DNA of 58,142 nucleotides from a virus, in the IMG/VR virus record IMGVR_UViG_3300042352_000458, positions 1 through 58,142 of that record; one strand, written 5' to 3'. Every line of letters starts with the position of its first letter. The first letter of the stretch is position 1. The translations under genes and the position numbers were made by a program. This document shows positions 5,190-50,061 of the stretch, piece by piece. The notes beneath the pieces were generated by a model. It ran no database searches and was not told where the DNA came from. It saw only the letters and a program-made list of their open reading frames with translations.

Positions 5190-5202
5190 AATAGAATAAA
5201 CA

Positions 5203-5820: not shown

Positions 5821-5825
5821 AAATT

Positions 5826-6525: not shown

Positions 6526-6536
6526 AACAAGAACAA

Positions 6537-6974: not shown

Positions 6975-6979
6975 TAAAA

Positions 6980-7297
6980 ATGACAGCATGTAGCCAAACA
7001 AGCGGCCCAATAATAAATAGAGTAGTAGATCCATGTAATGGAATACACACCTCTACAGATTGTGTCGTACACAGTGAGCCTATAACTTACTTATTTATAG
7101 AAGATAATACAAACTTGACTACTGTTTTAGAAGCAATTGTATTATCACTACAAAGTAATAATACTAGAGTTACTCAATTAGAAGAAGAAAACGCACAACA
7201 AGCGTCAGCAATTACAGTCTTACAAGGACAAGTAATTGATATACAACAAGCAATATTAGATATCCAAGGAAGACTAGATACTTGTTGCCCACAATAG
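6980..7297 (+). CDS. Stand-alone fibre adaptor domain
   Basis: This 105-aa protein closely parallels the first 110 residues of the 1100-aa protein encoded next. The shared elements are MTACSQTSGPIINRVVDPC versus MAACNQTDIPVLNIQEDPC, then an STDC/STNC motif, a long helix (LEEENAQQASAITVLQGQVI) and a final CCP. It looks like an adaptor or attachment domain made without a distal fibre. It could be a truncated fibre, a shorter assembly partner, or a donor for domain exchange. The following gene starts 26 bases after its stop. Confidence 0.55.
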   Translation: MTACSQTSGPIINRVVDPCNGIHTSTDCVVHSEPITYLFIEDNTNLTTVLEAIVLSLQSNNTRVTQLEEENAQQASAITVLQGQVIDIQQAILDIQGRLDTCCPQ

Positions 7298-7323
7298 TAA
7301 TAATAAAAAAACAAAAACCAATC

Positions 7324-10626: not shown

Positions 10627-10645
10627 ACAAATAAAACAAATAAAA

Positions 10646-11650
10646 ATGTGTAATTGCGGAAAAACAACAAATACAATATGTACGTCAACATGTCAAACAG
10701 TTGACTGTGCTTGTCCAGTAAAAGATTTAAGTACAGATTGCGTACTATATACAGGAGAAGATTTACCTTGTACAGAAATAAAGACCGGCACCTTATTAAC
10801 AGAGGTGTTCGGTCAATTAGATACCTATCTTTGTGACCTGTCTGCTCAATTAGCTAATGCTTTTAGTTTGATAAGCGTTGGTCAAGGAGTTAGAGTTTAC
10901 AAAGGAGTAGACGGAATTGGTAGAAAAGAAATTAGATCTCTAGTTAGTCCAGACGGATTCTTAAATATAGGCTTATCGGCAGATAATAAGGAGATAGAAT
11001 TCAGTATAAACAATGCAGTACTAAAACCTTTTATACAAGCTAATCAAATTACTTATTCTGCATCTAATATAGGATCAGGTGCAGGATTGTATAAAGAAGC
11101 AGTTAGGACCGCAGACAATGTCAACTTTAGTTTTAAGAGATTAAAATCTCAAAATAACACGATAACTATTACAGAAGAAGCAAACGAGATAAATCTTCAA
11201 GTGACCTCACCAGACCAAACTGTAACTATAACAGGAGGTGGTGCAACAACTGTAACAGGATCTTATCCAAACTTCACTGTTAGCTCAACTGACAATGATA
11301 CAACATACTCAGCAGGGCTAGGTTTAAACTTATCAGGTACAACTTTTGGAGTAGTAAACTTACAAAAAGTAATTACAGGAAACTATACTTTAACAAGTGC
11401 AGATACTGAGTACACAATATTTATAGACAATGGAACCTCACCAGTAACAATAACAGTTCCTGCAGGTTTGGTAGCAAATTTTGAAGCAGGTTTTATACAA
11501 GAGGGTACAGGAGCAGTTACATTTTCTGCAGCTGGTACTACAATAAACACACCTACTGGGTTGAAGATTAAAGGACAAAGATACCAAGCTTTTCTTGAAA
11601 AGAGATTATCTTCAGAGACTTTTTACTTATTAGGTAACGTAATAGCATAA
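10646..11650 (+). CDS. Virion fibre or appendage protein with shared adaptor
   Basis: This 334-aa protein starts with a Cys-rich N-terminus (MCNCGKTTNTIC, CQTVDCACPV). A module follows with DLSTDCVLYTGEDLPC and IKTGTLLTEVFGQL, related to the short adaptor genes upstream. The middle is beta-rich and Asn/Thr-rich, as in trimeric fibres (QTVTITGGGATTVTGSYPNF). The C-terminus (about 240-334) has a capping-type beta domain (ITGNYTLTSADTEYTIFID, then GLKIKGQRYQAFL). It probably assembles on the virion through the same adaptor as the propeller protein and ends in a beta tip. It lies 19 bases downstream of the propeller gene. Confidence 0.6.
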   Translation: MCNCGKTTNTICTSTCQTVDCACPVKDLSTDCVLYTGEDLPCTEIKTGTLLTEVFGQLDTYLCDLSAQLANAFSLISVGQGVRVYKGVDGIGRKEIRSLVSPDGFLNIGLSADNKEIEFSINNAVLKPFIQANQITYSASNIGSGAGLYKEAVRTADNVNFSFKRLKSQNNTITITEEANEINLQVTSPDQTVTITGGGATTVTGSYPNFTVSSTDNDTTYSAGLGLNLSGTTFGVVNLQKVITGNYTLTSADTEYTIFIDNGTSPVTITVPAGLVANFEAGFIQEGTGAVTFSAAGTTINTPTGLKIKGQRYQAFLEKRLSSETFYLLGNVIA

Positions 11651-11653
11651 GGT

Positions 11654-12211
11654 ATGAAAAACTTTAAAAGAAACATTTACAGACTTAGTAGCTCAGACTG
11701 TACCTTTACTGGTACAGCTTCTGAGGTTGAAGTCGTAACTTTACCTGTCACAGGACTAGTTTGGGACACAACTGTAAACAATGCCTGTAATGCAACTCCA
11801 TGGGTAATAAGCAACTCAAACTTAACAATAAGGTATAACATAACCAACTCTGTAAACTGCGGAGGTACATGCCAGTCACTACAAGCAGGTACAGCAACAG
11901 CAACAATAACAGTAGGAGCTAAGGATGTTTATATGGGGTTAGACTTTGATGGTATAGGTGAATTACAAGCTTCACAATTTGAAATAATAAAGTTTAGCCT
12001 AGATGGAGTACAAATAGCTGACGCACATGCTGCAGGAGGTAATTTAGGCTGTGCAATGGGGCCAGTTGTAAAAACTTTTACACAACCATCACCTTACTTC
12101 TTAGCTGCTAATAGTGTACACACACTGTTTATTGATTTTACAACAGCAGATCCTTTATTCCACGTAGGAGCTTACTATGAAGTACAACTATCTTTTACAG
12201 AAATACAATAA
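11654..12211 (+). CDS. Predicted beta-sandwich appendage protein
   Basis: This 185-aa protein has no signal peptide or catalytic motif that I recognise. It is rich in beta strands (TATATITVGAKDVYMGLDF, then YYEVQLSFTEIQ at the end) and contains scattered cysteines (SSDCTF, VNCGGTCQS, LGCAMG) that could stabilise a lectin-like or jelly-roll fold. It starts three bases after the preceding fibre gene and is followed 14 bases later by another Thr-linked protein. A small receptor-binding, decoration or baseplate-type component is likely from position. Function otherwise unknown. Confidence 0.45.
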   Translation: MKNFKRNIYRLSSSDCTFTGTASEVEVVTLPVTGLVWDTTVNNACNATPWVISNSNLTIRYNITNSVNCGGTCQSLQAGTATATITVGAKDVYMGLDFDGIGELQASQFEIIKFSLDGVQIADAHAAGGNLGCAMGPVVKTFTQPSPYFLAANSVHTLFIDFTTADPLFHVGAYYEVQLSFTEIQ

Positions 12212-12225
12212 ACTAAATAACTAAA

Positions 12226-13305
12226 ATGATAATATCAGTAACAATAACATCAGCGGGGTCAGATTCTGGCCCTTTTGATATCTACAGTAACTCAACAGGT
12301 TCCTTTGTGTTAGTACAATCAAACGTAAGTAAAGCTGTACTATTTCAAGGGTATACTATGACTGTACCAGATGGCACAACTGTAGTTAGAGTAGAGTCTA
12401 AAGGAGAGTGTACAAACTACGAAGATATAATTGTGGATCTTATTACCACCACTACCACTAGTACTACAACAATTGCTCCTACTACTACCACAACTACAGC
12501 CGCCCCGACAACCACTACAACAACAACGGCTGCACCATCAAGCGATTATAGAATAAGAAGTTATGTAATAGCTAATAATATAAATCAGGTAGAATGTGGC
12601 AGTGCAACTTACTACGATTATATAGAGGCAGTAAAATTCGAGCTAACAGAGCTTGACGGTATTACACCAAAAGTTAACACAACTGGGGCTGACATTGTAG
12701 TAAATATGCAATTTGATACTATTGGATGCTTTGGTTCAGGAAGTTTTTATAGAGATGTTATAATACCTCCAGGACAGTCATCAGTAAATGCAGAAAACAA
12801 AGGTATAACTAATAATTGTGGAGGTACAGGATGTGTAACTGAAACAGAAATTATGTCATGTTATACATCAATAACACCTAGCACAGTATTACCATCAGGT
12901 CAGTTTTACTCACTTTGTGAAGCACCAACCACAACTACCACAACCACTACAGTAGCACCTACAACAGCAAGGTTAGACTACCAAGTTACTTTGGCAGGAG
13001 GTATATCATATGGAACTTTTAACATATCAGTTAATGGAACTAATGTTTATAACACAAACGCAACAGATAGTGGGTATATAGATGTTCCTATTAACAGCTC
13101 TATTGAAGTTAATATATATGCACCTCCAGGAGAGGCAGAAGCAACATTTAATTCGCAAGTTTTTGCAAACAATAGTTCAGGAAGTATAGCAAGCGATTCT
13201 GGCCCTAATGCATCAGCAACAATAAGCTTTACAGCAAGCGAAGACACATCCATAGTAGGTACAGCAACTACTAGTGGAAGTAATGGAACTCCTGTAATAC
13301 AATAA
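12226..13305 (+). CDS. Modular appendage protein with Thr-rich linkers
   Basis: This 359-aa protein has three beta-rich domains joined by Thr-rich linkers. Domain 1 is about residues 1-70 (ISVTITSAGSDSGPFDIY). The first linker is about 73-105. Domain 2 is about 107-230, with several cysteines including NNCGGTGC. The second linker is about 234-246. The C-terminal domain runs from about 250 to 359 and echoes domain 1 (ITSAGSDSGPFDIYSNS versus VTLAGGISYGTFNISVNG). This is a typical fibre or surface-decoration layout. It directly precedes two glycosyltransferase genes, so its Thr-rich linkers are candidate glycosylation targets, an inference not shown by the sequence. Confidence 0.55.
   Translation: MIISVTITSAGSDSGPFDIYSNSTGSFVLVQSNVSKAVLFQGYTMTVPDGTTVVRVESKGECTNYEDIIVDLITTTTTSTTTIAPTTTTTTAAPTTTTTTTAAPSSDYRIRSYVIANNINQVECGSATYYDYIEAVKFELTELDGITPKVNTTGADIVVNMQFDTIGCFGSGSFYRDVIIPPGQSSVNAENKGITNNCGGTGCVTETEIMSCYTSITPSTVLPSGQFYSLCEAPTTTTTTTTVAPTTARLDYQVTLAGGISYGTFNISVNGTNVYNTNATDSGYIDVPINSSIEVNIYAPPGEAEATFNSQVFANNSSGSIASDSGPNASATISFTASEDTSIVGTATTSGSNGTPVIQ
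12441..12966 (+). repeat. Two Thr-rich linker tracts in the 359-aa appendage gene
   Basis: ACN-codon tracts at about 12441-12540 and 12925-12966 interrupt the gene between domains. They resemble the tracts in the propeller gene about 3-5 kb upstream and a shorter one at 22628-22680 in the large tail protein gene. They may act as recombination joints. Confidence 0.75.
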
Positions 13306-34221: not shown

Positions 34222-37200
34222 ATGGATTTTAACCCAGAGAAATTAGCCAACCAGGAAGTAGACCTATTCATTAAAAATTTGAATAAGTCTGCTAACCCAG
34301 AGATAAATACTGTAGGAGATAGTATAAGAAGTTCTTATACTAAGCCTAATCCAGCTACAATGGTTCCTGACTGGTATGATACAGCTAGTTCTAGGCAACA
34401 AGAGAATATTTTTGGACCAACAGTAAAACCTACTTTAGAAAAAAGAAATTATAATGTAGATCAAGCTTATGCAAAGTTAAATGACGGTACATACATAGCT
34501 AAGTACGATACTTTTAAAGAAGGTAGAGATAATGCAGAGTATTTTGCACAAACTCAAGCAACCTCAGATAAGTGGATTAATGGACTTACTAAATTTACAG
34601 GTAAGTTAGCTACAGGGATAGTAGGAGGTACAGTAGGTACAGTGTACGGAATTACTCAAGGGATTAAAGAGGGAAGCTTTAGAGCTACCTATGACAACGA
34701 TTTTCTAAACTATTTAGATGACTTAGATCAAAAATTAGACTATAAGCTACCAAACTATTACTCAAAATCTGAAAAAGAGGCTGGGTTTTTTGGTAGTTTA
34801 GGTTCAGCGAATTTTTGGGCTAAAGATGTGCTAGGTGGTGCGGCATTTACTGTATCAGCCATAGGGTCTGAAGCAATATGGGCTTGGGCAACTGGTGGTA
34901 CATCTTTAGCAGCAACAGGAGCTAGACTAGGTATGAGAGCCGAAAGGCTTTTAGGAGAAGGCAGTATGGCACTAAGAGCCATAAACAAGACAAAAGATTT
35001 AGTGCTATCTCCAGTAAGAACAGCATTCTCAAAAGCTGCAGAGGCAGAAACGTTAGTTAATAAAACTATGTCAGTAGCTTCTGCGACAAAGCTTGGGAAA
35101 GCTGGTGCTATGGCAAATACTGCAAGATTTATGTACACCTCTGCAGGATTTGAAGCAGGGGTTGAAGCTAGATCTTACATAAGAGAACAAAGAGAGTCAT
35201 TTGACCAAATGTTTGAGAGCAAAAATGGAAGAGCAGCTACACCAGAAGAAAGAAAGGATTTTGAAGAGAATTTAACAAACTCAGCAAACGCTTTATATGG
35301 AGCAAATACAATAATAGTAGGTACAAGTAATCTAGCCATGATAGGCAAGATAGCGGACATAAAAAACCCTTTAACTTCTCCTACTAGATGGGTAAACTCT
35401 AAGATATTTGGTGCTGGGGTAAAATCAACAGAAGCAGGATTAGAAAAAATAGCAACAAGTAAAGCACAAAAAATTGGGCAATACGCATGGAGCTTATCAA
35501 AAGGGCCACTTACAGAAGGGGTTTGGGAAGAAGGTATGCAATCTGTAGCAAGTAACACAGCTAAAAATTGGATTAACGCAAAGTACGACCCAAAATATAC
35601 AAAAGATACACTATCATTAACAGAAGCTTTTAACGATGGATTATCCCAAACTTATGGTACCAAAGAGGGTATGAAAGAAGTTGGTATAGGTATGTTGATA
35701 GGTCTTATTACAGGTACAGGTATAGGAGTTGCTAGCGGTAAAGGTATTAACTCTGAGTTTTATAATGTAAACAAGAGAACTGAAGGGTTAGAAAGCTTAT
35801 CTAAGTACTATTCCCCAAAAAAAATGGCAGAGAATTTTGCCTATGCAAATAGAGTACAGCTAGCTAATGAGTCTTATGAGTCAGCTAATGCAAAAGGAGA
35901 CATAGTTGGTGGAGAACTTGCTAGAAAATCCTCTGCAATAGCTCAGTTAAACTACGCATATAACTTAGACTACTTTGATCAGACCATAAGTGATACAGAA
36001 ATAGCTATAAAAAATATAGACAATCAGACTATAATGAAAGAGCACGGAGTGGACGAAAAAGGTGCCATGGCTTTGAAGGATAGTATGATACAAGAATATA
36101 AAGATACAGCTAAAACTTTTAAAAAGTATAGAGACTTTTCCGAATATTTTGTTAGTGATAAGTTAACTAAGGAGAAAGAATTATTAGGAGATCACAATGC
36201 AGACAGTGTTAAAGAAGCAATTGCTTACGAATTGACACTAGGAGAGAGTGCTCATAATTTTTCTGGAGACTTACTTCAAGCAATTAAGCAAAAAGTAGGA
36301 ACTAGCATACTAGGCACAGATATTTCAAATGCTTTAAATATCGAAGACATTCTTTTAAAAGCAGGTAAAGAGACTAAAGTTGAGGCTACCAAAAAAGAAA
36401 AGCAAGCTAAGGCTATAGCTAGAGAAATAGAAACTTTAGATAAAGAGTACTTAAATTTAGAGGCTACCTTTAACAACACAAGGACAGACGAAGAAAAGAA
36501 AACTTTCTTGGGTACAATGGACTCTAACAGAGCCAAAAAGACTAAGTTAGAAAAAGAAAGAGAGGTTTTAACTTCTGAATACAATGCCTTATTGAGTTCT
36601 GCAAAACTAAAAAACCCATTTGGAAAATACGGTGATGAAGTTTTCATAAGCACTAAGACATTAGAAGATAGAGTTAATAAAGTTAACAACATAAATGAGA
36701 TAATAAAAGCTCATCAAACAGTTGACCCTCAAGAGGCATTACAACTAGAGAAGCTTGTAAAAGAGTATTCTAAGTCTATCTACGCATTCCAAAGATATGC
36801 TGAATTGTCAAGACAATTGTCTGACCCTACATTGGGGCTAAGAGGTAAAAGAAATATTATCTCTGAAATTATGTCAGAAAAGTCGCCTAGCCAAGCCACA
36901 GTAGAGACATTAGAAAAACTAATGGAGGGATACGAAGAAAGATTAGGGCAAAACTTGGAAGAAATAGTATCTCAACAAGAGGATGTTGAAAAAGTTATTT
37001 CAGAGGACAAAGATAAAAAAGGAGCCACTATTGATAAGATTAACCAAGACACAAGTAATGAGTCTGTGCAAAATCTTAGAGCTAAGGAGCAAGAGGAGTT
37101 AGTAAGAGAGATACCAAATATCGAAGATTACAAAGTAGACGGTAAGGTAGACAAAAGTAAGATAACTGATCCAAAGGATAGAGCCAAGTTTGAAGAGATT

Positions 37201-39315
37201 TATAATAAGTACGATAAACTTATAAGCCCTTTACTAAACAAAAGTGCTGAAAACACAGAGGCTAAAAAATCTATAAGAGACACTGTTCTTGAAATGATAA
37301 ATAATAGTCCATACTTATTAGATTATTTTGGAGAAGGAGTCCCAGTTTTGCCTACTCAGGAAGAGTTAGATGAGTATACAGATTTAGCTAGCAGGGCAAT
37401 AAATGACCCTAAGATAGATAATGACACTATAGCTTACAAAAACCCTTACTCTTACAATAGACTAACACCAACAACAAGACCGTCATTGAAAAAGGCAGAA
37501 GTAGCTAGACTACAAGAGCTTAATAATAAGATGTCCAAATGGGGTCTTTTAGGGGCTTACTCAAATGCAGGAGGGGTTAGTATAAAAGATATGTTACTAC
37601 AAGATATAGCAGTAAACCAATCAGTTGACCCTATTATAACATCTGAAGTTACAGAAGATGAGTTAGTAACTAATTCAAACGTAGAGCCAAAACAAACAGA
37701 TAAAGGAGATGGAATAAGAAATGAAGAGGTACTTCAAGTCTATCAAGATGTTTTCATAAAAAGAAATCAAACTGGTACTACTATATCACATCTATCTTTA
37801 CCAGGACTTTTGTCTAGAATGGATATTTCAGATAGTATAGGTTATGCACAAGTAACTACAAATAAAGGCAAACAAGTAATCAAAAAAGGATCTATAAAAA
37901 CTATAGATATTTCTCAAGTAGAAGATAATTTAGTTCCAGGTGCCAATTTTGTATTGACTTTTTCTGATGGAGAAACAGCTACTATATCAGTGAAAAGAAG
38001 CGGTGCTCTTTTAGTTAGTAAGGCAGAAGACTTTACAAAAATATTTGACGCAGCCGGATTAAGATATGTAGACAATACTCTGACAAATAAAGCAGGATTT
38101 TCTCCGGTTTATGATCAAGATACAGGCAAAAAGCTTAGCACAGATTACACTGATACTAGTGAATACAGTCCAATGGAGTTATACAATATGATTCCAGGAA
38201 ACAGTGTAACTTTTAGTATAAATCTAGCTAGTGAGTATAATCAAAAACTAATAGCAGATTATTTAGCAGCGACACCAGAACAAGAGGAGGAAGCTTCTAA
38301 AGAACTAGCAAGTAATCTTAAGATTAATGTAATAGATATTAAAGGAAGAAAGCTAGGAGATCTAAAAGCAAATTACGAAACAAACGAGAGCCCGGAGTTT
38401 CTACTATTAAGAGAAGAAGCTGCAAAGTTAGCTAAAGAGAAAGAGGCAGACGTAAGTGATATAGATATTAGATTATCTAAAGAAAGTTTTATTAAACATA
38501 TTTTCTTAGGGGTACCTAACTTTGTTTTTGAGAACGGTAGTGTAAAGTATTTTGATATTGTACCAGATGCAATAGTTGATTACGGCTATGTACAAGATGG
38601 AGAAGTTTCTTTAAAAGGAAACACAAAGAATGTCAGAATGGATTACGTAAAAGACCTACTTAAGAAAGAAGGATTGCCAATAGCAGTGTTTAAGCAGGGC
38701 CAGTATCTAGTTGCGTTCCCTATGAATTTAAAAGAAGGGGATACAAAAATAGGAGACAAAGCCTTAGAAACATTGATGCAGTCAGATAGCTTAGGAAAAG
38801 GAGTTTTAGAATTAAACAACACCTTAGCCAATAATGGTATATCACCTTCTAGTTACAACTTATTCTACTTAAGTGAAGATAACCAATCTTTATTCACAGA
38901 GGATAAAATGACTAAATCTTTAGAAGAAGCTATTAACAAGCTTAATGAAGTAAAGCAAGTAGCAGATGTTACAGAGTGGATGAGTCCAGGTCACACTAAA
39001 GAAAACTTAGTAGATCAAGCCAGTATTGCCATTGACATAACAAACAATCCTCTTACTTCTCCAAAACCTATTATTAACCTTAATAGAATGGTTGAATTTA
39101 AGGACGACTGGTATGCAGAAGCACTAAGAACTGGAGAACTTTCTGATGAAAAGGCAATAGAAATTGCTACTAAAATTTTCTCAGGGGATTCTATAACACC
39201 AAAAGAAAGCAATTTTGTGGACGACCCTAAAGTTGTAGGAGTTATAAGTCAGTTGACTAAGCTAGAAGATGACTTAGATGCTGCATCAAGAAGTGCACAA
39301 AATGAACCTTGTTAA
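34222..39315 (+). CDS. Giant ejection-type protein with membrane-like segments
   Basis: This 1697-aa protein is mostly helical with three hydrophobic or Gly/Ala-rich stretches: GKLATGIVGGTVGTVYGITQ at about 125-145, GGAAFTVSAIGSEAIWAWAT at about 205-225, and VGIGMLIGLITGTGIGVASG at about 487-506. Long charged coiled-coil regions follow (about 650-1000). The C-terminal part is mixed beta and helix (about 1150-1697) with no enzyme motif that I recognise. Membrane-inserting stretches in a giant virion protein fit a DNA ejection protein that forms a channel through the host envelope. It starts two bases after the 872-aa gene. Confidence 0.5.
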   Translation: MDFNPEKLANQEVDLFIKNLNKSANPEINTVGDSIRSSYTKPNPATMVPDWYDTASSRQQENIFGPTVKPTLEKRNYNVDQAYAKLNDGTYIAKYDTFKEGRDNAEYFAQTQATSDKWINGLTKFTGKLATGIVGGTVGTVYGITQGIKEGSFRATYDNDFLNYLDDLDQKLDYKLPNYYSKSEKEAGFFGSLGSANFWAKDVLGGAAFTVSAIGSEAIWAWATGGTSLAATGARLGMRAERLLGEGSMALRAINKTKDLVLSPVRTAFSKAAEAETLVNKTMSVASATKLGKAGAMANTARFMYTSAGFEAGVEARSYIREQRESFDQMFESKNGRAATPEERKDFEENLTNSANALYGANTIIVGTSNLAMIGKIADIKNPLTSPTRWVNSKIFGAGVKSTEAGLEKIATSKAQKIGQYAWSLSKGPLTEGVWEEGMQSVASNTAKNWINAKYDPKYTKDTLSLTEAFNDGLSQTYGTKEGMKEVGIGMLIGLITGTGIGVASGKGINSEFYNVNKRTEGLESLSKYYSPKKMAENFAYANRVQLANESYESANAKGDIVGGELARKSSAIAQLNYAYNLDYFDQTISDTEIAIKNIDNQTIMKEHGVDEKGAMALKDSMIQEYKDTAKTFKKYRDFSEYFVSDKLTKEKELLGDHNADSVKEAIAYELTLGESAHNFSGDLLQAIKQKVGTSILGTDISNALNIEDILLKAGKETKVEATKKEKQAKAIAREIETLDKEYLNLEATFNNTRTDEEKKTFLGTMDSNRAKKTKLEKEREVLTSEYNALLSSAKLKNPFGKYGDEVFISTKTLEDRVNKVNNINEIIKAHQTVDPQEALQLEKLVKEYSKSIYAFQRYAELSRQLSDPTLGLRGKRNIISEIMSEKSPSQATVETLEKLMEGYEERLGQNLEEIVSQQEDVEKVISEDKDKKGATIDKINQDTSNESVQNLRAKEQEELVREIPNIEDYKVDGKVDKSKITDPKDRAKFEEIYNKYDKLISPLLNKSAENTEAKKSIRDTVLEMINNSPYLLDYFGEGVPVLPTQEELDEYTDLASRAINDPKIDNDTIAYKNPYSYNRLTPTTRPSLKKAEVARLQELNNKMSKWGLLGAYSNAGGVSIKDMLLQDIAVNQSVDPIITSEVTEDELVTNSNVEPKQTDKGDGIRNEEVLQVYQDVFIKRNQTGTTISHLSLPGLLSRMDISDSIGYAQVTTNKGKQVIKKGSIKTIDISQVEDNLVPGANFVLTFSDGETATISVKRSGALLVSKAEDFTKIFDAAGLRYVDNTLTNKAGFSPVYDQDTGKKLSTDYTDTSEYSPMELYNMIPGNSVTFSINLASEYNQKLIADYLAATPEQEEEASKELASNLKINVIDIKGRKLGDLKANYETNESPEFLLLREEAAKLAKEKEADVSDIDIRLSKESFIKHIFLGVPNFVFENGSVKYFDIVPDAIVDYGYVQDGEVSLKGNTKNVRMDYVKDLLKKEGLPIAVFKQGQYLVAFPMNLKEGDTKIGDKALETLMQSDSLGKGVLELNNTLANNGISPSSYNLFYLSEDNQSLFTEDKMTKSLEEAINKLNEVKQVADVTEWMSPGHTKENLVDQASIAIDITNNPLTSPKPIINLNRMVEFKDDWYAEALRTGELSDEKAIEIATKIFSGDSITPKESNFVDDPKVVGVISQLTKLEDDLDAASRSAQNEPC

Positions 39316-39384: not shown

Positions 39385-42300
39385 ATGAGCTTAAACTGTA
39401 GAGTTTTTAGAACAGAGAATGGAGCTATAGATTTTGTCAATGCACCAAATGGCAATAGAAGTACCTTATTTGATAACTTAGTTAAGATAGCGGGCGGTAA
39501 TAAAGATATCGCCCTAGATCTTTACGCATTGACAGAAACCCCTGAATTTAAGGACGGTGTAGATGTCAAAACTAGCCAAGCAAAAAGAAGACTTCTAGAA
39601 AAAGCCAAGCAGTTAATGAAGGAGACAGCCCCAGTACCAACTGCTGAGGAGACAAAAGTAGCCGGATTTAATAAAGGGGTTGAACAAGTAAGAAAGATAG
39701 CTGAGGATTTTAAAAAGGAATTCAAAAGAGTTGGCCTACAGCACATGCCTGTACAAAAACTATTTACTGTTGTATCTGAGGAAATAGCAAAGGTGTACGA
39801 AACTATACCAAATAAACCAAAAGATAAAAAAGTAAAAGAGGCTTATAAAGCAATGGTAGATGAAACCTTAGAGCAATACAACTACATAATAGGCAAAGGG
39901 CTTAAAGTAGTAAGGCATGTAGTTACAGGAGAACCTTATGTGAACTCTAAGCAAATGTTAGAGGACTTAGAAAAAAACAACACATTGAAGTTTTTACCTA
40001 ATGATGTTGCATTTGGACAAGGTAACATAGACGTTTCAGATAACATAGGCTTACAACCTAGCGGCATAAAACTAGAAGACGGTTATGAGCTTACTAACTC
40101 AGAAGTTTTTAGAGTAGTACACGACTATTTTGGTCACGGTATTCTAGGGAATGAGTTTGGGGCAATAGGAGAAGAAAATGCAACTTTACAACACTTAGAC
40201 CTTTATTCAGAAAAAGCAGCACCTGCTGTAATTTTTCAAACAAGAGGCCAAAACAGTTGGGTAAACTATAGTGGTGCAAACGAAGAAGCAAACTCTTTAA
40301 GAGCTCAAGCCAGAGATCTAAGAAAGCAAGGAAGAGAAGAAGAGGCAGACAGATTAGTAGAAGAAGCAAATAATATATTTAAGTTCGCAGAACCTAAAAT
40401 AGGAATTTTTCCAAACAAGTACAATTTTAAGAGATATGAAACAGCAAGAAGAATCAAAGAAGACGCAGAAATCCAAGGTAGAAAATATAGATACACTAGT
40501 GCTGCAGTATCCAGCACATTACCAAACATATCTAAGAAAAGCGTTGGAAGAAGGGGACTCACTAGAACAGGCTTTGGCATCCCTAAGAGCCTTCAATCTT
40601 TAAAAGGCAAAACAACTAAAGTAATAGTTGACGATAAAATAAAATCAGATATTACTAAAGCTTTCCCTAAAGTAAAGGTTTTTCCTAATGTATATGAAAT
40701 ACAAGACGGTGAGGCTTATAGAAAAATGCAAGAAAGCTCTCTTGTAAATAATGAATACAGAGACTCTGTAACAGTACATACAGCCGAAGAGTACAATCAA
40801 ATGAGAATGTTTATCTCAGAAGACGGTATGACTGGGGTTACTTTAGATAAAGACGGTCATCTTGGAGGAGGGTTTTCTGACCCAGACTCTGGAAGACCAA
40901 ACGATATAGCACAATTGTTGATAATAGGTATAAAAGAGGGGGCTACAAATGCAGAAGCTTTTGACACAATTCTCCCAGACTATTATTCAGCATTTGGTTT
41001 TAAAGCAGTATCTAGAGTGGCATTTAATGAAGAAGAGGTACCAAAAAACTGGAACTACGCTACGTATAGCAGATTTAATAATGGTAGACCAGATGTAGTT
41101 CATTTTGTATGGGATGGTGGAGATAGAAATACTATAGAAGAAAGAGTAGGCCAGTTTGATAACTACTCTACTTACCAAAAAGATCAAACAAAATCTTTTA
41201 ATAAAAATAGCTATGCCGCATCTTATGAGTACATGAGAAAAGCAGTAGCTAATAGATTTACATACGAACAGGAGCAGATAATACAATCGGCAACTGAAAT
41301 TATAAGTAAGAAGTCACCATCAATGACTTATAAAAACTCTAACCTTTATTCTAAAGACAGAGTTAATCCAATTACAGGTAAATCTACAAAACAAGTTGAG
41401 ATTGAGCTAATAGAGACAGCACCTGAAAGTAAAGGTAATGGGGACGCTAGGCAACTATTAAGAAACTTCTTAGACTATACAGACGCTTTAGGAAAAGATG
41501 TTTACTTAGCAGTATCACCAAGAGATGTAACCACAACAGCTGAGGGATTAGAAAGGTTATATGCTTCAGAGGGATTTGAAAAAGTCTCAGATTTTGAGAT
41601 GGTTAGAGTAGCAAAACCTGTAAAAGTAGAAAGTTTTGATAACAACGGGGAACCAACCGTAAAAAACTTGATGGAGTATATCAATGGGACAAATAAAACT
41701 TTGTCTAATGAGAGATTAGGTATGGCTATGAATTCTATGATGGCTATGGGAGTTACAAGCTCTTCAGAGTTATTAAGTAAGTTAGAGTCAGCAATAGTTA
41801 AAAATGGAGCCATAGTTTTTGATAAGGTATCTTTACAAAGCAGTGGAGTATTTAATAAGTACGAAGCTACAAAAATATCAGAGTCTTTGGCTTTGCAAAA
41901 TAAGATAAAGCAGTCGTTTTTGGAACTAAGGAATCAAGAACCTTTTACAATTGAATACGATAACAATTTTGCAATAACTGAAGGGTCAACATTAAACGAT
42001 TTTGGTAAACAAAAAGTATCTAACCCTTTCATAGTAGAAAAAGAACTTCTTATGGACATCGCTGGATTAGAAGAAAACGAAATAGAAAGTAACTTACTTC
42101 CTGAATTAGGAGATAAGTATTCTACAAATGAAGAGTTTAAAGCCAAGATTGATAACTTAGCAAAAACTACCAGACTAGTAACCATAAAGACAGATTCTGA
42201 AGAGGGGTTAGTTGACAAGAAAGCAAACACAGAAGAGATGCTTTTAGAAACTGTTATAGATAAAGGTAACCCAAAACTAGAAGAGAATATAGATTTCTTA

Positions 42301-43533
42301 AAAACAAGAATTTCAGAAGAGGTTTGGGAAGAAAGCCCTAGGCAAGTAGTTGCTGTATTGAACAGCATAAAAAAATCTGCTATAGAGAATGGAATAGATC
42401 TAAAAAATCTTTCAGCAAAAGTTCTTACACACAGTAGAGAAGATATACTAGCATTACTAGACTCTATGGAGAACTTTTTACAAGACACTGAAGATGCAGA
42501 TGCTCTTAGTACATTCGCAAGATTGTATGACGAAGTGTTTGAAACAGCGGAGTCACAAACTGAACTAATTGTTACAGACAATGAATTTGATGTGTTAGTA
42601 GACACAGAGAAAACAGAGTATCAACTGTTCTCAGAATACGGTCTTGTAAAGAAACAAGGTGACGTTTATAGACAAGTGGAAGAGCAATCTTTGGAAGAGT
42701 TGTACAATAACATGATTGAGTACTCTGACATTTTACCTACCGGGGTAAAAACTGTAGAAGATCTCAAGAACTATGTAGAGAAACAGCTTCCAAACTTAGA
42801 AATTTCTGATTATGAAGTTAATACAGATAATTTGGAGAAAATGGTTTTATACAAAACTTTCTTTAAGTTTCCAATATCTTCTCCAGATCCAAGAGTCTCT
42901 ACAGAAGAGCTTTCTAAAATAAGTAAAGACCCAGAGTACCTAGTTAGTGACTTTGTAAAAGAATTCAATAAGTGGGTAATTAAAAAAGCAAATCCTTACT
43001 TCAAAGTTACAGAAAGAGGAATAGAATTGGTAGAGAATGATCCTATATCAAAACAGGAAGCCATATTAAGCTTACCAGAGGACTTAAAATCAGATTTGGC
43101 ACAATATAACGCATTGTCAAAAAGATTGAACCTGGAGCTTCCTATGGAAGAAGTTTTCCCTGATTATGACGCACAAAGCCAACAAAGAGAAAGAGTAGTA
43201 AACAATCCTAAAAGTGTTAAGAAACTAGAAGGAGATTATTTATACGTAGAAGACGGAGTCCTAGCAGTAAGAAACTCAACAGACACTTTCATAAGAACAC
43301 CTAAGGGGGTATATGAAATGATCTACGAGGCAGGTAATGTCAAGTTCTACGGGGCTCTTCCAGAAGCGAATGCAGATTACAAAGTATTTGGAGTAGCCTC
43401 ACCACTATCAGATATGGATTTTTCTAAGTACCAGTATTTAGAGAATTCACCTGGAGTATTTAAGACTATGAAGAAATATTATACAAAAGAGGAATTAGGA
43501 CAAATAGATGAAGAGTACTTCAGCTGTCAATAA
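39385..43533 (+). CDS. Giant multidomain (polyvalent-type) virion protein
   Basis: This 1382-aa protein starts with a short domain (CRVFRTENGAIDFVNAPNGN, STLFDNL) related to the start of the 1904-aa protein encoded next. Residues about 235-310 contain FRVVHDYFGHGILGNEFG, with H246, D247 and H251 as a possible metal-binding set, then QTRGQNSWVNY. Residues about 473-596 and 648-746 look like two GNAT-type folds (LPDYYSAFGFKAVSRVAF; YLAVSPRD plus ASEGFEKV). A long helical C-terminal half follows. This mosaic matches the idea of polyvalent phage proteins injected with DNA to counter host defences or reprogramme the cell. Catalysis is unproven. Confidence 0.6.
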   Translation: MSLNCRVFRTENGAIDFVNAPNGNRSTLFDNLVKIAGGNKDIALDLYALTETPEFKDGVDVKTSQAKRRLLEKAKQLMKETAPVPTAEETKVAGFNKGVEQVRKIAEDFKKEFKRVGLQHMPVQKLFTVVSEEIAKVYETIPNKPKDKKVKEAYKAMVDETLEQYNYIIGKGLKVVRHVVTGEPYVNSKQMLEDLEKNNTLKFLPNDVAFGQGNIDVSDNIGLQPSGIKLEDGYELTNSEVFRVVHDYFGHGILGNEFGAIGEENATLQHLDLYSEKAAPAVIFQTRGQNSWVNYSGANEEANSLRAQARDLRKQGREEEADRLVEEANNIFKFAEPKIGIFPNKYNFKRYETARRIKEDAEIQGRKYRYTSAAVSSTLPNISKKSVGRRGLTRTGFGIPKSLQSLKGKTTKVIVDDKIKSDITKAFPKVKVFPNVYEIQDGEAYRKMQESSLVNNEYRDSVTVHTAEEYNQMRMFISEDGMTGVTLDKDGHLGGGFSDPDSGRPNDIAQLLIIGIKEGATNAEAFDTILPDYYSAFGFKAVSRVAFNEEEVPKNWNYATYSRFNNGRPDVVHFVWDGGDRNTIEERVGQFDNYSTYQKDQTKSFNKNSYAASYEYMRKAVANRFTYEQEQIIQSATEIISKKSPSMTYKNSNLYSKDRVNPITGKSTKQVEIELIETAPESKGNGDARQLLRNFLDYTDALGKDVYLAVSPRDVTTTAEGLERLYASEGFEKVSDFEMVRVAKPVKVESFDNNGEPTVKNLMEYINGTNKTLSNERLGMAMNSMMAMGVTSSSELLSKLESAIVKNGAIVFDKVSLQSSGVFNKYEATKISESLALQNKIKQSFLELRNQEPFTIEYDNNFAITEGSTLNDFGKQKVSNPFIVEKELLMDIAGLEENEIESNLLPELGDKYSTNEEFKAKIDNLAKTTRLVTIKTDSEEGLVDKKANTEEMLLETVIDKGNPKLEENIDFLKTRISEEVWEESPRQVVAVLNSIKKSAIENGIDLKNLSAKVLTHSREDILALLDSMENFLQDTEDADALSTFARLYDEVFETAESQTELIVTDNEFDVLVDTEKTEYQLFSEYGLVKKQGDVYRQVEEQSLEELYNNMIEYSDILPTGVKTVEDLKNYVEKQLPNLEISDYEVNTDNLEKMVLYKTFFKFPISSPDPRVSTEELSKISKDPEYLVSDFVKEFNKWVIKKANPYFKVTERGIELVENDPISKQEAILSLPEDLKSDLAQYNALSKRLNLELPMEEVFPDYDAQSQQRERVVNNPKSVKKLEGDYLYVEDGVLAVRNSTDTFIRTPKGVYEMIYEAGNVKFYGALPEANADYKVFGVASPLSDMDFSKYQYLENSPGVFKTMKKYYTKEELGQIDEEYFSCQ

Positions 43534-43629: not shown

Positions 43630-46600
43630 ATGAGCTGTACTATCAATTACAACCAAAAAGGAGAAATAAAAAACGTGCTTACACCAGAAGGTGCAGAAAG
43701 CAAACTATTCAGACAAATCGCTAGACTACCTCATATAGATAGTTTAGAGGAGGCTTTAGGTATTTTCAAAAACATCTACTCTGAAGATTTTCAGGGGGAG
43801 CAGCCTCTTACTTTTAAATCAGATAAAGGCAGTTTCCATACTACTTATGCAGAGGCTTTAAAAAACTCTACTTCAGGTAATATTGAAGCTGGGATATCTT
43901 CTGAGCAAGGATTTAAAAGCTTAGTTAGCGTATCTGCTAACACTAACACTGCAACTTATGAAGGGTTAATAAATAACTTGATTAAGAGTGATATACTTTC
44001 TGATGAGAGGATAATAGAAGACGGTAAAACTTACCATAAAGCTGCCGGGAACCACGGCCCTCTTCAGATAGCAAATGAACAGGTTATTAAAGAAGAGCTT
44101 AAAATAAACCTAGGCAGAAAAAACTTTACTATCCACAGAGATGGTAGAATTGAAATTAAAAATAAAAAGAATACTGTAGAAGTAGGAAATAAAACTATGT
44201 CTTTAGAAGATATAAGATCTTCTGATATGAGAGAGCTTGAAAAAGTTGTCGGGAAAGATGCAGCTTTAACTCTTACTATAAACAATGCGGTAAAAGACTC
44301 TCTACCAACAGGTATTAGCGAGGAAAAAATATCAGCAGATGAAACAGCCTTAAAGCTAAACCTGTTAGATTTCCTTAACAAGATAGGTGTATCTATTACC
44401 TCTATCAATAAGTATGTAGAAAAGTACAGAATTACAAATGGAGTAGATCCGTCTGCACAATCTTTAGTTGACATATCAAGACAAACTATTGCATTTAAAG
44501 ATGGCATCATAAACCTAGATGGTCTTACAGAGGAGACTATACACTTTATAGTTGAAACTTGGGACGATGTAGAGATTGAAAACTTACTAAGAAATGCACA
44601 TAAGACATCTTCTTACGTAGAGTTTGCAAATTCTTATAGGGAACTTTACGCAAAAGAGAATCCTAAAATGTCTGCTGAAGAGGTAGAAAACTTGGTTAGA
44701 AGAGAGATCTTAGGTAAAGAGTTGTCTAAAGCAATACAAGAAAGATTCACAACAGAAGGAAAGACAGATATACAAAAAAGTATATTGACTAAGCTATACG
44801 AGTTACTACAAAAGTTTTTTAATTCGCTAGTTGTTACTGATGCATTCTATGAAGATTTAGGGGCATTGACGTTAAAAGTAGAGGACTTGCTATTAACTAA
44901 AGATGTAAATAAATACTTAAATTTAGAACAGGCCAAAACCAAAAAATTCAGAATGTATCAGCAACAAGCGAGTGGCGATTTGCAAATTGATACTAAGAAT
45001 GCTATCACAAAACAATTAGTAGCAGTACTTCTTGAACAAGAAAAAAATATAAAAAGAGCCGGAGGAGGTTCTAATGCTAGTATTAAAATGCTTAATCAAG
45101 CATTGGATAAAGCTTTTACTAAAGGTTCCATATTAGATTTGATCTCTTTAGCAAAAAGGCAAGCAGATTATGTAGAGATTGCAATAACTAGAGCAAATAA
45201 AATAGGCGAAACTTTGTCTAATGAAGAAGGGATTGTACTACACGGTTTAAAAAACCAGATTGTGCCAGTTCTTGAAAAGCTAACCGCTATAGTAAACGAG
45301 GATCCAGAATTATCAGATATTCTTGGCGATGTAGAAAGAGTAACTAAAAAGGTTAATTTAGTAAACGGTATAGTTGCAAACTCTCAAAATAATATACTAG
45401 ATAGGATTATTGATAGACTTATGGTAAGACATAGTTTAGATGAATCTGCTAAAAAAGGGTTGAAAGATGCTGTTACAAATGCTACCAGAGATACTCAAAT
45501 GTTGTATGCGGTGTTTGGTCAAATAACACATGCACATGATCCCTTGTTAAATATTTTAGGGTCAGTTGTAGCTGATATGACTATGGATGCTGAGCAGTCT
45601 TATATAAAGAGAGCCAAAGACTTCCAAAGTAAGATTAGAGAGTTAGGATTTACCGAGAAAGATTTACCAAAATTTATGGGTAAAGATGGGTACATACTAA
45701 GCATGCACGATTTTAGTACTTTTGAGAAAGACATTTTAAATTTAAAAGTTGCAGCCTACAAAAAGCACAGTGGTACCACTATGACTGATGAGGCTATTGC
45801 AGAAGGTATAGAAAACTCTACTTTGCCTAAAATAAAAGATTCTGATGCAGAGCAAAGATATTACAAAGAAGTAAATGATCAAGTAAATGAAAAAATTGAA
45901 AGAAGTTTTACTAATGAGTATTATGAAGAAAGAGAAAAAAGGTTTACTGATCTAGGAATAAGCGAGGCAACAAAGCTACAACTAAGACTTCTTTCTTCAG
46001 ATTTAGGGAGTTTACTGTCAAAAGTAAAAAATGAAAAAGGTTTACCTAGATACACTGAACAAAACAAATACGACCTTGATGCACTTAACTTAAAAAGAAG
46101 ATCTATAAAGTCTTTTTATGATGGATTAGGTAATAAGAAAAAAGGTATAGAGTTTGTAGACAATGCCGGACCTGATACTATAGAGGTAGGGGGAGCATTT
46201 GTAAAACTTGGAAGTAATCCTTCAGAGGAGGCCTCTATTGCTTTTGAGATAAACAAACTAGACCAAGCATTCTTAAAAGAGAAACAGCAAGAGTCTCTAG
46301 CAGCAGGGAACCAAAAAGTAGACGTAGAAAAGTTAGCCCCTAAATTTTTAGAAGAGCTAGCTAGAATAGAGCAAGAAGAGGGTAGAGAAGCAGCAGTAGA
46401 ATTCTTCCTACTTAACTCAAGCGTAGGATTTTCAAATGAGTTTTGGAATACTTTTGACAACACAACAGGCACAAACGCTGCCATGGATGAGTATTTACAA
46501 AGACCTGATGCCGAAGATATTTGGGCAATCAGAATAGAAAACTACAGAGCTAAGTTACAAACAAGAAAAGCTGTCCTTAAGCAGTATCAAGATTCTAGGA

Positions 46601-49344
46601 ATTTCACCAATACAATGGCGAATGAGATGACAGAGAAGCAAAGGAAACACATCTTAGAGCTATCTGAAGACATTGACTCAGATTTTCTTGAGATATCTTC
46701 TATTTTAAAGAAGCAAGATATAGATATAGAGCAAGAACCTCTAACAGAATCTACGCCTAATCAAGCTTATTATGATGCTTTGAGAGATGCTAGAAAAACT
46801 TCTCCGGAAGATGTGTTAGACTTTACTATGTCAAACATGACTGCTGACAACGCCAGAAAAGTAAGAAAGTTTGCAGATGCTTTGGAAGACGCTATTAGTG
46901 GAAGGAGAATATCAGAAGGGCATAAAGAGCTAATACTAAGACTTGCTGGTATAAACGAGATAACAGAGCTAACAAGAGAGGACATAAGCAGGGTAAAAGT
47001 TAAGTATGCAGAATCTAAATTGGCACCTTACTATAAAGCTTTCGCACCTGTAGGATTAAACGAATTTTACAATTCACTAAAAACAGGAAACCAAACTGTA
47101 CTAAACTTAGTTAAGGATCTTAACTCAAGAGAGGATGTAAAAGTAAGTAACAACTTCTCATACTATGAGATGGGAGAACTTAAGTACAAAAACGCAAATT
47201 TCAAGGAGGATTTTGAAGGTGGCCCAAGACAACCTAAGCTATCACAGTACTTAAATAAAGATTTCGTTGATCTTTTTGGACCTACATTAGATAGTAAAAA
47301 CAACCCTGTACTAGATTCGGAAGGTAAAATTCAACCTACCAAAAATAAAGAGCTGTTTAAGTTGTATGAGACATACTTAGATTTTCAAAGAGAGACATTA
47401 AGATCTTATGGCGAACTAGGTATGCATAATCTATACTTAGCACCTCAAGTATCTAAGTCAGGTTTAGAAAAAGCAAGTGACTTTATTACAAAAGGTAATA
47501 AGGGACAGACTATAAAGAACTGGTGGCAAGATATTACTAGATTTAGAGTAGACGAGCAAGCATTTGGGGAGGAAGTAAAAGGAGAAATCTTGATTGAAAA
47601 ATCAGATATGAGACTTATTCCTAAATACTTTTTGAAAAAGTTAGAGTCTTCTACAGATGTATCTACAGATCTATTTTATAGCTCTATGTTACAGGCCCAA
47701 CAAGCTCAATTATATAAAGCTAGAAAAGAAAGGTTTTCTGAAATATCTGTATTACATGATGCAGTATTAGCTAGAACATATCCAGGAGGTAAAGAAGCAA
47801 AAACTACCAACACTTACAAAATGTTTACTTCCTATATGGATTATAACTTATTCGGAGTAACAGAGAGAAGAAACTGGAGAGTTAGTTTACCTGTTATAGG
47901 TCAAGTAGATGCAACAAAAATTATTAACTGGTTCCATAGTTGGGTTAGAAATAACTCATTGGCAGTCAACTTTGTAGTACCTATTACATCATGGCTTACA
48001 GCAGAGGCCTCATTAATTGTAGAGAAGTATGTTGGGCAATATGTGGACCCTAACTCTATGAGCTTAGCGACAAAAGAGTTTACAAAACTATCTTTACCAG
48101 CTATGAGAGAGAGTATGAAAATTAACTCTAAATCAAAACTTTCTGTACTAGGAGAGCACTTCAAGATTTATGATTTATCTAATAGATTTGAAAACTCTAA
48201 GTATAGTGTAGCTCCTAGAAACCTTTCTAAGTCTATGTACGTTTTACATACAGCAGGTAACTTTGTACCTTTATCTAAAGCTATGCTATCTCAGCTTTAC
48301 GGACACCGTATTTATGAGGGTAAGTTTTTAGATTTTGAACAGTTTGGAAAACTATTTAAGCAAGTAAACCCAAAAGCCACTAATAAGGATGTAAAGGGAA
48401 CTTGGGAAGGTCTAAAAGAAAAGTCTTTATACAACTATACAAAAGTAAGTGAAACTAGTGTAGACTATGATTATGATGCTTTAGCAAAGGATTTAGGTAA
48501 AACTAATGACGAGACTTTCAAATCAGACTTTAGAAATATCGAATTAGGTATCTCTAATAAAATGAGAAAAGTTATAGAAAGAATTGATGGTATGATTTCT
48601 GATGAGGAGAGAACTTCTCTACAAAGAGACGTACTTGGTAGATTCGTGATGACCCACAAAGGTTGGCTATCTATTTCTGCGTCTAATCGTTTCAAAAGAA
48701 GACACTTGAACTTACAGACAGGAAAAGTAGAAGAGGGTACCTACTTCTCACTATACAACTTCTTTGTGAACAACTTCAATTCAGGCCTTGAAAAAGGTGG
48801 CCTAAAAGGAGCTATGCGTGAGATCAAAGATCAATATTTGAGTGGAGATGACGTACAAAGACAGAACTTGAAAAGAGTAATGGTAGATATGACTTTTATG
48901 ACTACACTATTCTTACTTACTTTAGGGCTGTCACATTGGGCCGATGATGACGAAGATAACTGGACAGCACAGTTTACTGCCTACATGTTCGAGAGGTTAC
49001 AGACAGAAACTGCCTCTTCTCAATTTGGAGTAGTTGGAGAATTCTATAGTGGTATTAAAGAGCCTTTAGTAGGTGTACAAAAGTTAGAAAACTTCTTTGC
49101 ATTTACTGACATATTTGATACAGAAAAAGTAGCAAGTGGTAGATATGCTGGATTAACAAAACAACAAACATACTTTATTAAGAACGTTGTTGGAGCCAAG
49201 CCTACCTTTGATATCTGGTCTGCGAAGAACCTGAAATCTCAGAGAGATTCATACGACTTCTTTAACAAAGAAGAAGCCTTCTTACCTATAGCATGGTTTA
49301 TAGATGAAGAAGATTTACAAGATGGGCCAGAGACAGCCCAATAA
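43630..49344 (+). CDS. Giant virion/ejection protein of 1904 residues
   Basis: The N-terminal segment (CTINYNQKGEIKNVLTPEGA, SKLFRQIA) parallels that of the 1382-aa protein, suggesting a shared virion-targeting domain. Around residues 298-310 there is LTEETIHFIVE (E301, E302, H305), a degenerate zincin-like motif. Long helical regions follow. The C-terminal part (about 1480-1904) has RFVMTHKGWLSISASNRFK, a hydrophobic stretch MVDMTFMTTLFLLTLGLSHW, then KQQTYFIKNVVGAKPTFD. I see no convincing polymerase active site; one DYDYD string is not in a typical context. It probably enters the cell or spans the envelope with the DNA. Expressed from its own promoter and terminated at 49351-49389. Confidence 0.55.
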   Translation: MSCTINYNQKGEIKNVLTPEGAESKLFRQIARLPHIDSLEEALGIFKNIYSEDFQGEQPLTFKSDKGSFHTTYAEALKNSTSGNIEAGISSEQGFKSLVSVSANTNTATYEGLINNLIKSDILSDERIIEDGKTYHKAAGNHGPLQIANEQVIKEELKINLGRKNFTIHRDGRIEIKNKKNTVEVGNKTMSLEDIRSSDMRELEKVVGKDAALTLTINNAVKDSLPTGISEEKISADETALKLNLLDFLNKIGVSITSINKYVEKYRITNGVDPSAQSLVDISRQTIAFKDGIINLDGLTEETIHFIVETWDDVEIENLLRNAHKTSSYVEFANSYRELYAKENPKMSAEEVENLVRREILGKELSKAIQERFTTEGKTDIQKSILTKLYELLQKFFNSLVVTDAFYEDLGALTLKVEDLLLTKDVNKYLNLEQAKTKKFRMYQQQASGDLQIDTKNAITKQLVAVLLEQEKNIKRAGGGSNASIKMLNQALDKAFTKGSILDLISLAKRQADYVEIAITRANKIGETLSNEEGIVLHGLKNQIVPVLEKLTAIVNEDPELSDILGDVERVTKKVNLVNGIVANSQNNILDRIIDRLMVRHSLDESAKKGLKDAVTNATRDTQMLYAVFGQITHAHDPLLNILGSVVADMTMDAEQSYIKRAKDFQSKIRELGFTEKDLPKFMGKDGYILSMHDFSTFEKDILNLKVAAYKKHSGTTMTDEAIAEGIENSTLPKIKDSDAEQRYYKEVNDQVNEKIERSFTNEYYEEREKRFTDLGISEATKLQLRLLSSDLGSLLSKVKNEKGLPRYTEQNKYDLDALNLKRRSIKSFYDGLGNKKKGIEFVDNAGPDTIEVGGAFVKLGSNPSEEASIAFEINKLDQAFLKEKQQESLAAGNQKVDVEKLAPKFLEELARIEQEEGREAAVEFFLLNSSVGFSNEFWNTFDNTTGTNAAMDEYLQRPDAEDIWAIRIENYRAKLQTRKAVLKQYQDSRNFTNTMANEMTEKQRKHILELSEDIDSDFLEISSILKKQDIDIEQEPLTESTPNQAYYDALRDARKTSPEDVLDFTMSNMTADNARKVRKFADALEDAISGRRISEGHKELILRLAGINEITELTREDISRVKVKYAESKLAPYYKAFAPVGLNEFYNSLKTGNQTVLNLVKDLNSREDVKVSNNFSYYEMGELKYKNANFKEDFEGGPRQPKLSQYLNKDFVDLFGPTLDSKNNPVLDSEGKIQPTKNKELFKLYETYLDFQRETLRSYGELGMHNLYLAPQVSKSGLEKASDFITKGNKGQTIKNWWQDITRFRVDEQAFGEEVKGEILIEKSDMRLIPKYFLKKLESSTDVSTDLFYSSMLQAQQAQLYKARKERFSEISVLHDAVLARTYPGGKEAKTTNTYKMFTSYMDYNLFGVTERRNWRVSLPVIGQVDATKIINWFHSWVRNNSLAVNFVVPITSWLTAEASLIVEKYVGQYVDPNSMSLATKEFTKLSLPAMRESMKINSKSKLSVLGEHFKIYDLSNRFENSKYSVAPRNLSKSMYVLHTAGNFVPLSKAMLSQLYGHRIYEGKFLDFEQFGKLFKQVNPKATNKDVKGTWEGLKEKSLYNYTKVSETSVDYDYDALAKDLGKTNDETFKSDFRNIELGISNKMRKVIERIDGMISDEERTSLQRDVLGRFVMTHKGWLSISASNRFKRRHLNLQTGKVEEGTYFSLYNFFVNNFNSGLEKGGLKGAMREIKDQYLSGDDVQRQNLKRVMVDMTFMTTLFLLTLGLSHWADDDEDNWTAQFTAYMFERLQTETASSQFGVVGEFYSGIKEPLVGVQKLENFFAFTDIFDTEKVASGRYAGLTKQQTYFIKNVVGAKPTFDIWSAKNLKSQRDSYDFFNKEEAFLPIAWFIDEEDLQDGPETAQ

Positions 49345-49392: not shown

Positions 49393-50061
49393 TTAAACAT
49401 ATACAAGAGCAGTCGTATTTTTCCTGCCGTTGCTAAGCATCTTTTTTAAAGAAGAGTAAGGAATACTATTAAATATAGCGGCTTCTTTTATACCGTAATA
49501 AAAAATACCTGTGTTAGTGTTTAGTATAATTTTAGAATTAGGATTATCTTGTCCATATTTACCAAACATACTATTACCAGATCCTTTACATGTAATTTTC
49601 ATAGTAGTACTTATCCTTAACTTTTCTTCTTCAGATCTAATTCTATTTAAAGAGTAAGTATTACCTAACATTCTTGCAGAGGTATTCTTCCTATTCTCTA
49701 AGGAGGGGGCCCTGCCTATGTTGTGTTTTCGTATTTTATCTATAGTATCTTCAGATAAAATCCTTCTTTTTTCACCACATTCTTGTAAAATGCAGTTTAA
49801 CCCCTCCACCACCACGTTATAAAAATCTTGCCAATAACGTTCTCTACAGTTTAAGATTGACACTTCACATAATTCTACTATTTCAAATGTGTGATTTTCA
49901 ACACCGTATTTTAAAAAAGATCTCCACAACTTAACTTGTCTTTTTGTTTTGTTGTTTTTTGTTTTATAATCTCTCCATCTTTTTTCTATATTAATACCTT
50001 GTCCTATATAAACTCTTTTACTAGGAGAGGTTATCTTATAGATACCACACATGATATTCAT
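49393..50061 (-). CDS. GIY-YIG homing endonuclease
   Basis: This 222-aa protein has the GIY-YIG nuclease core at the N-terminus: CGIYKITSPSKRVYIGQG, with an EKRWRDYK Arg-containing helix and a later ERYWQDFYN segment with the catalytic Glu. The C-terminal half carries DNA-binding modules of NUMOD type (GSGNSMFGKYGQDNPNSK and a YYGIKEAAIFNSI helix-turn-helix-like end). This is the layout of free-standing phage homing endonucleases, which cut intronless or empty sites and spread themselves. It lies between the bidirectional terminator and the metallophosphoesterase gene, starting two bases after that gene's stop. Confidence 0.8.
   Translation of the reverse strand: MNIMCGIYKITSPSKRVYIGQGINIEKRWRDYKTKNNKTKRQVKLWRSFLKYGVENHTFEIVELCEVSILNCRERYWQDFYNVVVEGLNCILQECGEKRRILSEDTIDKIRKHNIGRAPSLENRKNTSARMLGNTYSLNRIRSEEEKLRISTTMKITCKGSGNSMFGKYGQDNPNSKIILNTNTGIFYYGIKEAAIFNSIPYSSLKKMLSNGRKNTTALVYV

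Follow-up and report, generated by a model that had tools for sequence, protein, structure and literature searches.

A conserved carrier with exchangeable enzyme-like modules in a probable virion cargo protein of a crAss-like phage

A 1382-aa protein encoded by a crAss-like phage is, in our judgement, probably virion cargo, a carrier that bears exchangeable enzyme modules in the manner of the 'polyvalent' proteins. The window analysed here is the whole of a 58-kb virus fragment (58,142 nt), and the ORF called for this protein spans positions 39385 to 43533 on the + strand. The protein begins with an N-terminal cap common to orthologues (residues 1-72; 39385 to 39600), followed by an HDxxGH domain predicted to be a metalloenzyme (residues 120-345; 39742 to 40419), which matches PHROG 3170 and contains the motif HDYFGH (residues 246-251; 40120 to 40137). 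Two GNAT-like domains come next, GNAT1 (residues about 429-578; 40669 to 41118) and GNAT2 (residues about 646-762; 41320 to 41670), and then a linker conserved in the GNAT2-carrying orthologues (residues 763-853; 41671 to 41943) and a C-terminal carrier region (residues 854-1377; 41944 to 43515) homologous to the 517-aa 'structural protein' (PHROG 29175) of phages phi17:2 and phi4:1. One large polypeptide accordingly combines several disparate domains: the HDxxGH domain, a pair of GNAT-like domains and a C-terminus of structural type. PHROG matches fell on residues 871-1378 (29175, virion structural protein), 133-298 (3170, function unknown; E 2e-17) and 465-547 (2563, unknown), and scans of the 1382-aa protein against Pfam and NCBIfam gave nothing above the cut-off, with no Pfam polyvalent domain in it. 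The first-pass annotation had marked the interval 40080-41620 for the motif and two acetyltransferase-like regions; the HDxxGH domain begins some 110 residues before that interval.

The gene lies between a 1697-aa homologue of crAss001 gp47 upstream (34222 to 39315, + strand; E 3e-19) and a 1904-aa homologue of crAss001 gp49 downstream (43630 to 49344, + strand; E 6e-18). According to the passages on cargo in PMC10172136, mass spectrometry of phiCrAss001 virions revealed gp47 and gp49, which belong to a cargo set of gp45, gp46, gp47, gp49 and gp50, in which gp47 is a putative RNA polymerase subunit; the cargo is proposed there to leave through the tail partly unfolded. The window gene shares this block, flanked by the gp47 and gp49 homologues. 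Unlike the phiCrAss001 cargo, its product carries enzyme-like domains, and a comparison of the 1382-aa protein with crAss001 gave no match below E 1 (best 2.5). We infer its presence in the particle from where the gene lies and from the annotation of its phi17:2 homologue as a 'structural protein', a label that reportedly rests on mass spectrometry. The synteny and the match of the C-terminus to this Cellulophaga phage protein lend support to the earlier description of the product as being of an ejected type. No simple pattern match to the aspartate motif of crAss001 gp50 (DFDVD) turned up among the 12 window proteins tested; the polymerase may be encoded beyond the 58-kb fragment or be different. 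Just downstream of the cargo block, an ORF on the - strand (49393-50061) starts, by eye, like a GIY-YIG endonuclease.

The carrier is best seen by comparison with relatives. The C-terminus (residues 854-1377) shares 27% identity over 509 residues with the 517-aa protein of phi17:2 and phi4:1, and in all seven phage records with a match (7/7) it is on that structural protein that the match falls. The two proteins have a homologous C-terminus and the same gene order, whereas the 517-aa protein is without the N-terminal cap, HDxxGH, GNAT1 and GNAT2. A profile of the C-terminus retrieved 11 loci, among which L241 is the window protein, L243 and L244, being equal in length and in domain scores, seem to be near-copies, and L250 encodes the same 517-aa protein as phi4:1. 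Across these loci, ORF length ranges from 517 to 2584 aa. The cap is clear in eight, weaker in L249 and L251 (scores 69 and 76 vs nulls of 39) and missing from L250; seven loci carry HDxxGH and nine GNAT2, while GNAT1 is confined to L241. Other carrier loci gain or lose HExxH, kinase-like and ART-like stretches, the kinase and ART names being our own reading of the sequence. The N-terminal cap and the C-terminus thus mostly stay across the 11 loci and the middle domains are exchanged, so that the domains first noticed in this protein form an insert that can be swapped within a conserved carrier, which goes beyond what the first-pass annotation had described. Since residues 1-850 have no counterpart in the phi17:2 orthologue, the enzyme part would not be needed for the virion.

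The cap pattern (G-x-I..V..P/N-x-G-x2-S-x-L-F) also heads the 1904-aa neighbour (39385-39600 vs 43630-43810). A pattern search matched 22 of 940 ORFs of ≥250 aa in the loci collected, all in the 1382-aa and 1904-aa families, although many of the 22 are the same gene fetched repeatedly. The cap may serve as a signal for loading or ejection.

The HDxxGH motif had been called conserved-looking, and the family alignment bears this out. Ten residues (Y185, R243, H246, D247, H251, F258, G262, E263, H270 and Q289) are each invariant in 115/115 aligned relatives, the alignment consisting of 115 rows of 134 after omission of 19 that were near-duplicates, short fragments or, in two cases, rows with a stop. 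HDYFGH is the sole H[DE]xxGH in the six frames of the window, and such a motif arose in 107 of 200,000 shuffles of the 1382-aa protein. Profile scans found at least 587 relatives among 600 matched stretches in IMG/VR, of which the best 80 were retained, and 49 among 108 stretches in 84,980 bacterial and archaeal species genomes. For the domain itself, sequence searches of Pfam, NCBIfam, PADLOC and the PDB returned no credible family; a Pfam scan of the 115 members gave one stray match (DUF6381, E 1.5e-5, in a single member), and a literature search for the motif found no paper. On this sequence evidence the domain is real and conserved, several of the ten invariant residues are of catalytic types, and the site looks like the metal-binding active centre of a widespread, uncharacterised family. 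We propose a single-metal enzyme that would use as ligands H246, H251 and one of E263, H270 and residue 285, with assistance from D247 or R243. The candidate ligand at 285 is E in 109/115 relatives, Q in five including the window protein, and S in one.

An AlphaFold2 model of the HDxxGH domain reached a mean pLDDT of 93.3, with the order strand-helix-strand-strand-strand-helix(HD)-helix(E). Foldseek returned zero rows against the PDB at E ≤ 0.001 and 19 rows against viral models at the same threshold, some of them proteins named ART-PolyVal-like, polyvalent-associated, NAT_SF or phage head morphogenesis. Separately, a distant BFVD fold match to the model (E 0.56) was gp7 of Pseudomonas phage LKA1 (L189, 3662-4228), a small protein with FRxxHDLGH and TxGQ by eye, which may be a short HDxxGH relative in T7-like phages.

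Structure prediction, which the first-pass annotation had suggested, gave a confident GNAT fold for GNAT1, but low pLDDT for GNAT2 and, for the HDxxGH domain, a well-predicted model without a clear fold match. For GNAT1, modelled from 28 sequences, pLDDT averaged over ten-residue blocks was 80-97 across model residues 31-210, with elements in the order b-a-a-b-b-b-a-b-a-b-b. Its best VIA match had Z 10.6 (131 aligned, rmsd 2.5), and the 50 VIA rows listed are acetyltransferases, by title or by the known nature of the proteins. Plain Foldseek gave no row for GNAT1 at E ≤ 0.001; its best row, at 0.012, was again an acetyltransferase. The model resembles RimI-like GNATs (E. coli RimI, 5isv: Z 10.2, 131 aligned, rmsd 2.7) and is confidently predicted to be a GNAT fold, but differs from them in the canonical CoA loop: the G-x-G pyrophosphate loop is missing in the window protein and 26/28 rows, and present by pattern in 2/28. 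Since this loop is missing in this clade, GNAT1 activity is doubtful. Relatives of GNAT1 were matched in seven phage records, under 'minor capsid protein' genes in four and 'acetyltransferase' genes in two. GNAT2, conserved in the orthologues, keeps the G-x-G loop (4/4 sequences). A profile-profile comparison with 20 Acetyltransf_7 sequences gave P 1e-6 (probability 91%, score 38.3 vs ≤14.0 in 40 column shuffles), which supports a GNAT-like domain on sequence grounds. The GNAT2 region of the same model was poor (block pLDDT about 38-62); it was modelled without relatives because MAFFT misaligned the GNAT2 rows onto GNAT1. GNAT2 scans gave three loci each, one being the window's own sequence. 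Of the two acetyltransferase-like regions claimed at first pass, both are therefore supported, the first by its fold (with its CoA loop missing) and the second by its profile.

Phage copies of the HDxxGH domain sit almost always in giant proteins. Across 71 loci chosen for long flanks, with stand-alone genome copies excluded, 61 of 63 complete phage ORFs exceeded 1000 aa (median 2590). Pfam matches in 19 giant HDxxGH ORFs comprised ART-PolyVal (5), DUF7178 (5), LPD23 (3), InPase (2), Acetyltransf_1 (2), Acetyltransf_7 (1), LPD38 (1) and DUF6782 (1). These features recall the polyvalent proteins as portrayed in the main text of Iyer et al. 2017 (PMC5512222): a giant multi-domain protein is encoded among virion genes, and relatives combine ART-PolyVal, LPD23, LPD38, InPase and GNAT. 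The inventory published there includes GNATs, to which the GNAT-like domains of the window protein may belong. Neither 'HDxxGH' nor 'crAss' appears in that main text, to which the comparison was confined. In contrast to those polyvalent proteins, the modules here ride on a crAss-like cargo carrier, and the window protein is most likely a variant of the polyvalent theme on such a carrier.

Stand-alone copies of the HDxxGH domain also occur in bacteria. Among 49 genome loci, 47 were measured, and 26/47 have an ORF of ≤430 aa, one of them (L098) frame-broken. In 14 of 20 actinobacterial loci (L116, L121, L123, L125-L127, L129-L132 and L134-L137), the HDxxGH gene lies back to back with an N6-adenine methyltransferase gene; similarity to L137 genes, the basis for the methyltransferase too, further identified in the 20 loci a Ser/Thr kinase (12), a UvrD-like helicase (11), a cas3-region match (10; the name cas3 is ours, from its position before Cse1) and a Cse1 match (10), counts that are not independent because the loci come from related genera with shared gene order, and the genes do not form one operon. 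Type I-E cas genes were found within about 7 kb in 10/14 of the methyltransferase-paired loci. Five other loci (L114, L115, L118, L122 and L133) have a SufS-like gene within 5 kb of HDxxGH, and L114, L122 and L133 also have, within 5 kb, ahcY and genes for an MFS exporter, a SAM methyltransferase, a cystathionine gamma-synthase-like protein and a homocysteine methyltransferase-like protein. The cluster at about 4500-13000 is conserved among these three loci, and the whole set, with HDxxGH between the MFS exporter and SufS-like genes, looks like a biosynthetic locus. L138 shows neither the methyltransferase/CRISPR nor the sulfur/methyl-metabolism context, and a literature search for the actinobacterial cluster found no paper. 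Gene context hints at small-molecule chemistry rather than proteolysis for the HDxxGH domain.

Two known enzyme classes were weighed as its identity. The domain could be a remote relative or mimic of the biopterin-dependent aromatic amino acid hydroxylases (PF00351), with both HDxFGH histidines and a Glu further on (position 285) holding Fe(II) for the oxidation of an amino acid or side chain. PF00351 proteins have the same HDxFGH spacing with D-x-F preceding it, the two-His motif H[DE]x[FILMVY]GH is present in the HDxxGH domain, and stand-alone HDxxGH genes lie in amino acid-related clusters. In hhalign, HDxxGH and PF00351 profiles matched at P 4e-4 to 6.4e-4 (score 32-33 vs ≤22-23 in 60 and 40 column shuffles), but over a span of only 14 to 44 columns around the motif. 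An hmmsearch with the HDxxGH model placed 13 hydroxylases slightly above their own shuffles (best E 1.1 vs 18), whereas with the hydroxylase model the HDxxGH domains fell behind the shuffles (best E 2.2 vs 0.05); without filters, nothing linked the two below E 1 in either direction. Foldseek places TPH2 at only E 8.7 (probability 0.01), and the window clade has Gln where the downstream Glu would be. PF00351 was not among the matches listed (25 of 66) in the Pfam scan of 115 members, TPH2 was absent from the VIA rows at Z ≥ 2, an absence that excludes nothing, and a search for literature joining phage, aromatic amino acid hydroxylase and polyvalent proteins found no paper. This identity was favoured at first and was lowered to an unlikely alternative because of the hmmsearch result and the short hhalign span; the likeness appears to be a motif resemblance, with homology beyond the motif not established.

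Alternatively, the domain could be a divergent metallopeptidase of zincin-like type, cleaving the polyvalent protein into its parts as polyvalent MPTase domains would. The single entry listed by VIA for the HDxxGH model was selecase (Z 2.8, 87 aligned, rmsd 4.6), a minimal metallopeptidase, and the strand and helix order of the model resembles that of zincins. This Z is nevertheless below the level typical of chance arrangement for models without a clear match and may mean only a common arrangement. Moreover, the catalytic Glu of zincin HExxH is replaced by Asp in 115/115 relatives and the spacing is longer by one, several relatives hold separate HExxH stretches in the same polypeptide, and stand-alone copies occur in metabolic clusters. 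Polyvalent MPTases with HEXXXH spacing are described in the main text of Iyer et al. 2017 (PMC5512222). MPTase-PolyVal (PF18818) had no match in four genomes and 40 viral records, nor in control genomes, and this result is hence uninformative; Peptidase_M78 was a weak zincin control because the four members displayed have no HExxH. Taken with the gene context, we regard a peptidase as unlikely.

A bolder proposal is that HDxxGH founds a new metalloenzyme superfamily acting on small molecules of the amino acid or SAM-cycle type, with actinobacterial stand-alone copies in biosynthetic clusters and beside the adenine methyltransferase at CRISPR loci. Phages would inject the same enzyme in polyvalent proteins to alter a host metabolite, for example one needed by methylation-dependent defences, in the first minutes of infection. 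We consider this proposal, as a whole, rather unlikely.

It is also conceivable that the 1382-aa protein serves particle assembly or forms a passive ejected channel, its enzyme-like domains being relics or binding modules. The retention of the C-terminus alone in phi17:2 and the GNAT1 domain without its CoA loop would fit such a role. Against it stand the ten residues invariant across phage and bacterial copies, the existence of stand-alone bacterial copies and the repeated exchange of the enzyme-like modules, and we hold it to be very unlikely. In the cargo model that we prefer, the C-terminal ~525 residues, perhaps with the N-terminal cap, would bring the protein into the particle alongside the RNA polymerase-associated proteins. 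Early in infection it would pass out through the tail in a partly unfolded state, and GNAT2 may then acetylate a protein or small molecule inside the cell.

What makes this cargo protein interesting is the uncharacterised HDxxGH family, which is large in phages and has bacterial stand-alone members with informative neighbours. If HDxxGH is an enzyme, a 220-260-aa actinobacterial copy would offer an easy route to its chemistry. Furthermore, the carrier and insert layout in crAss-like relatives would open a direct way to study protein loading and ejection in such phages.
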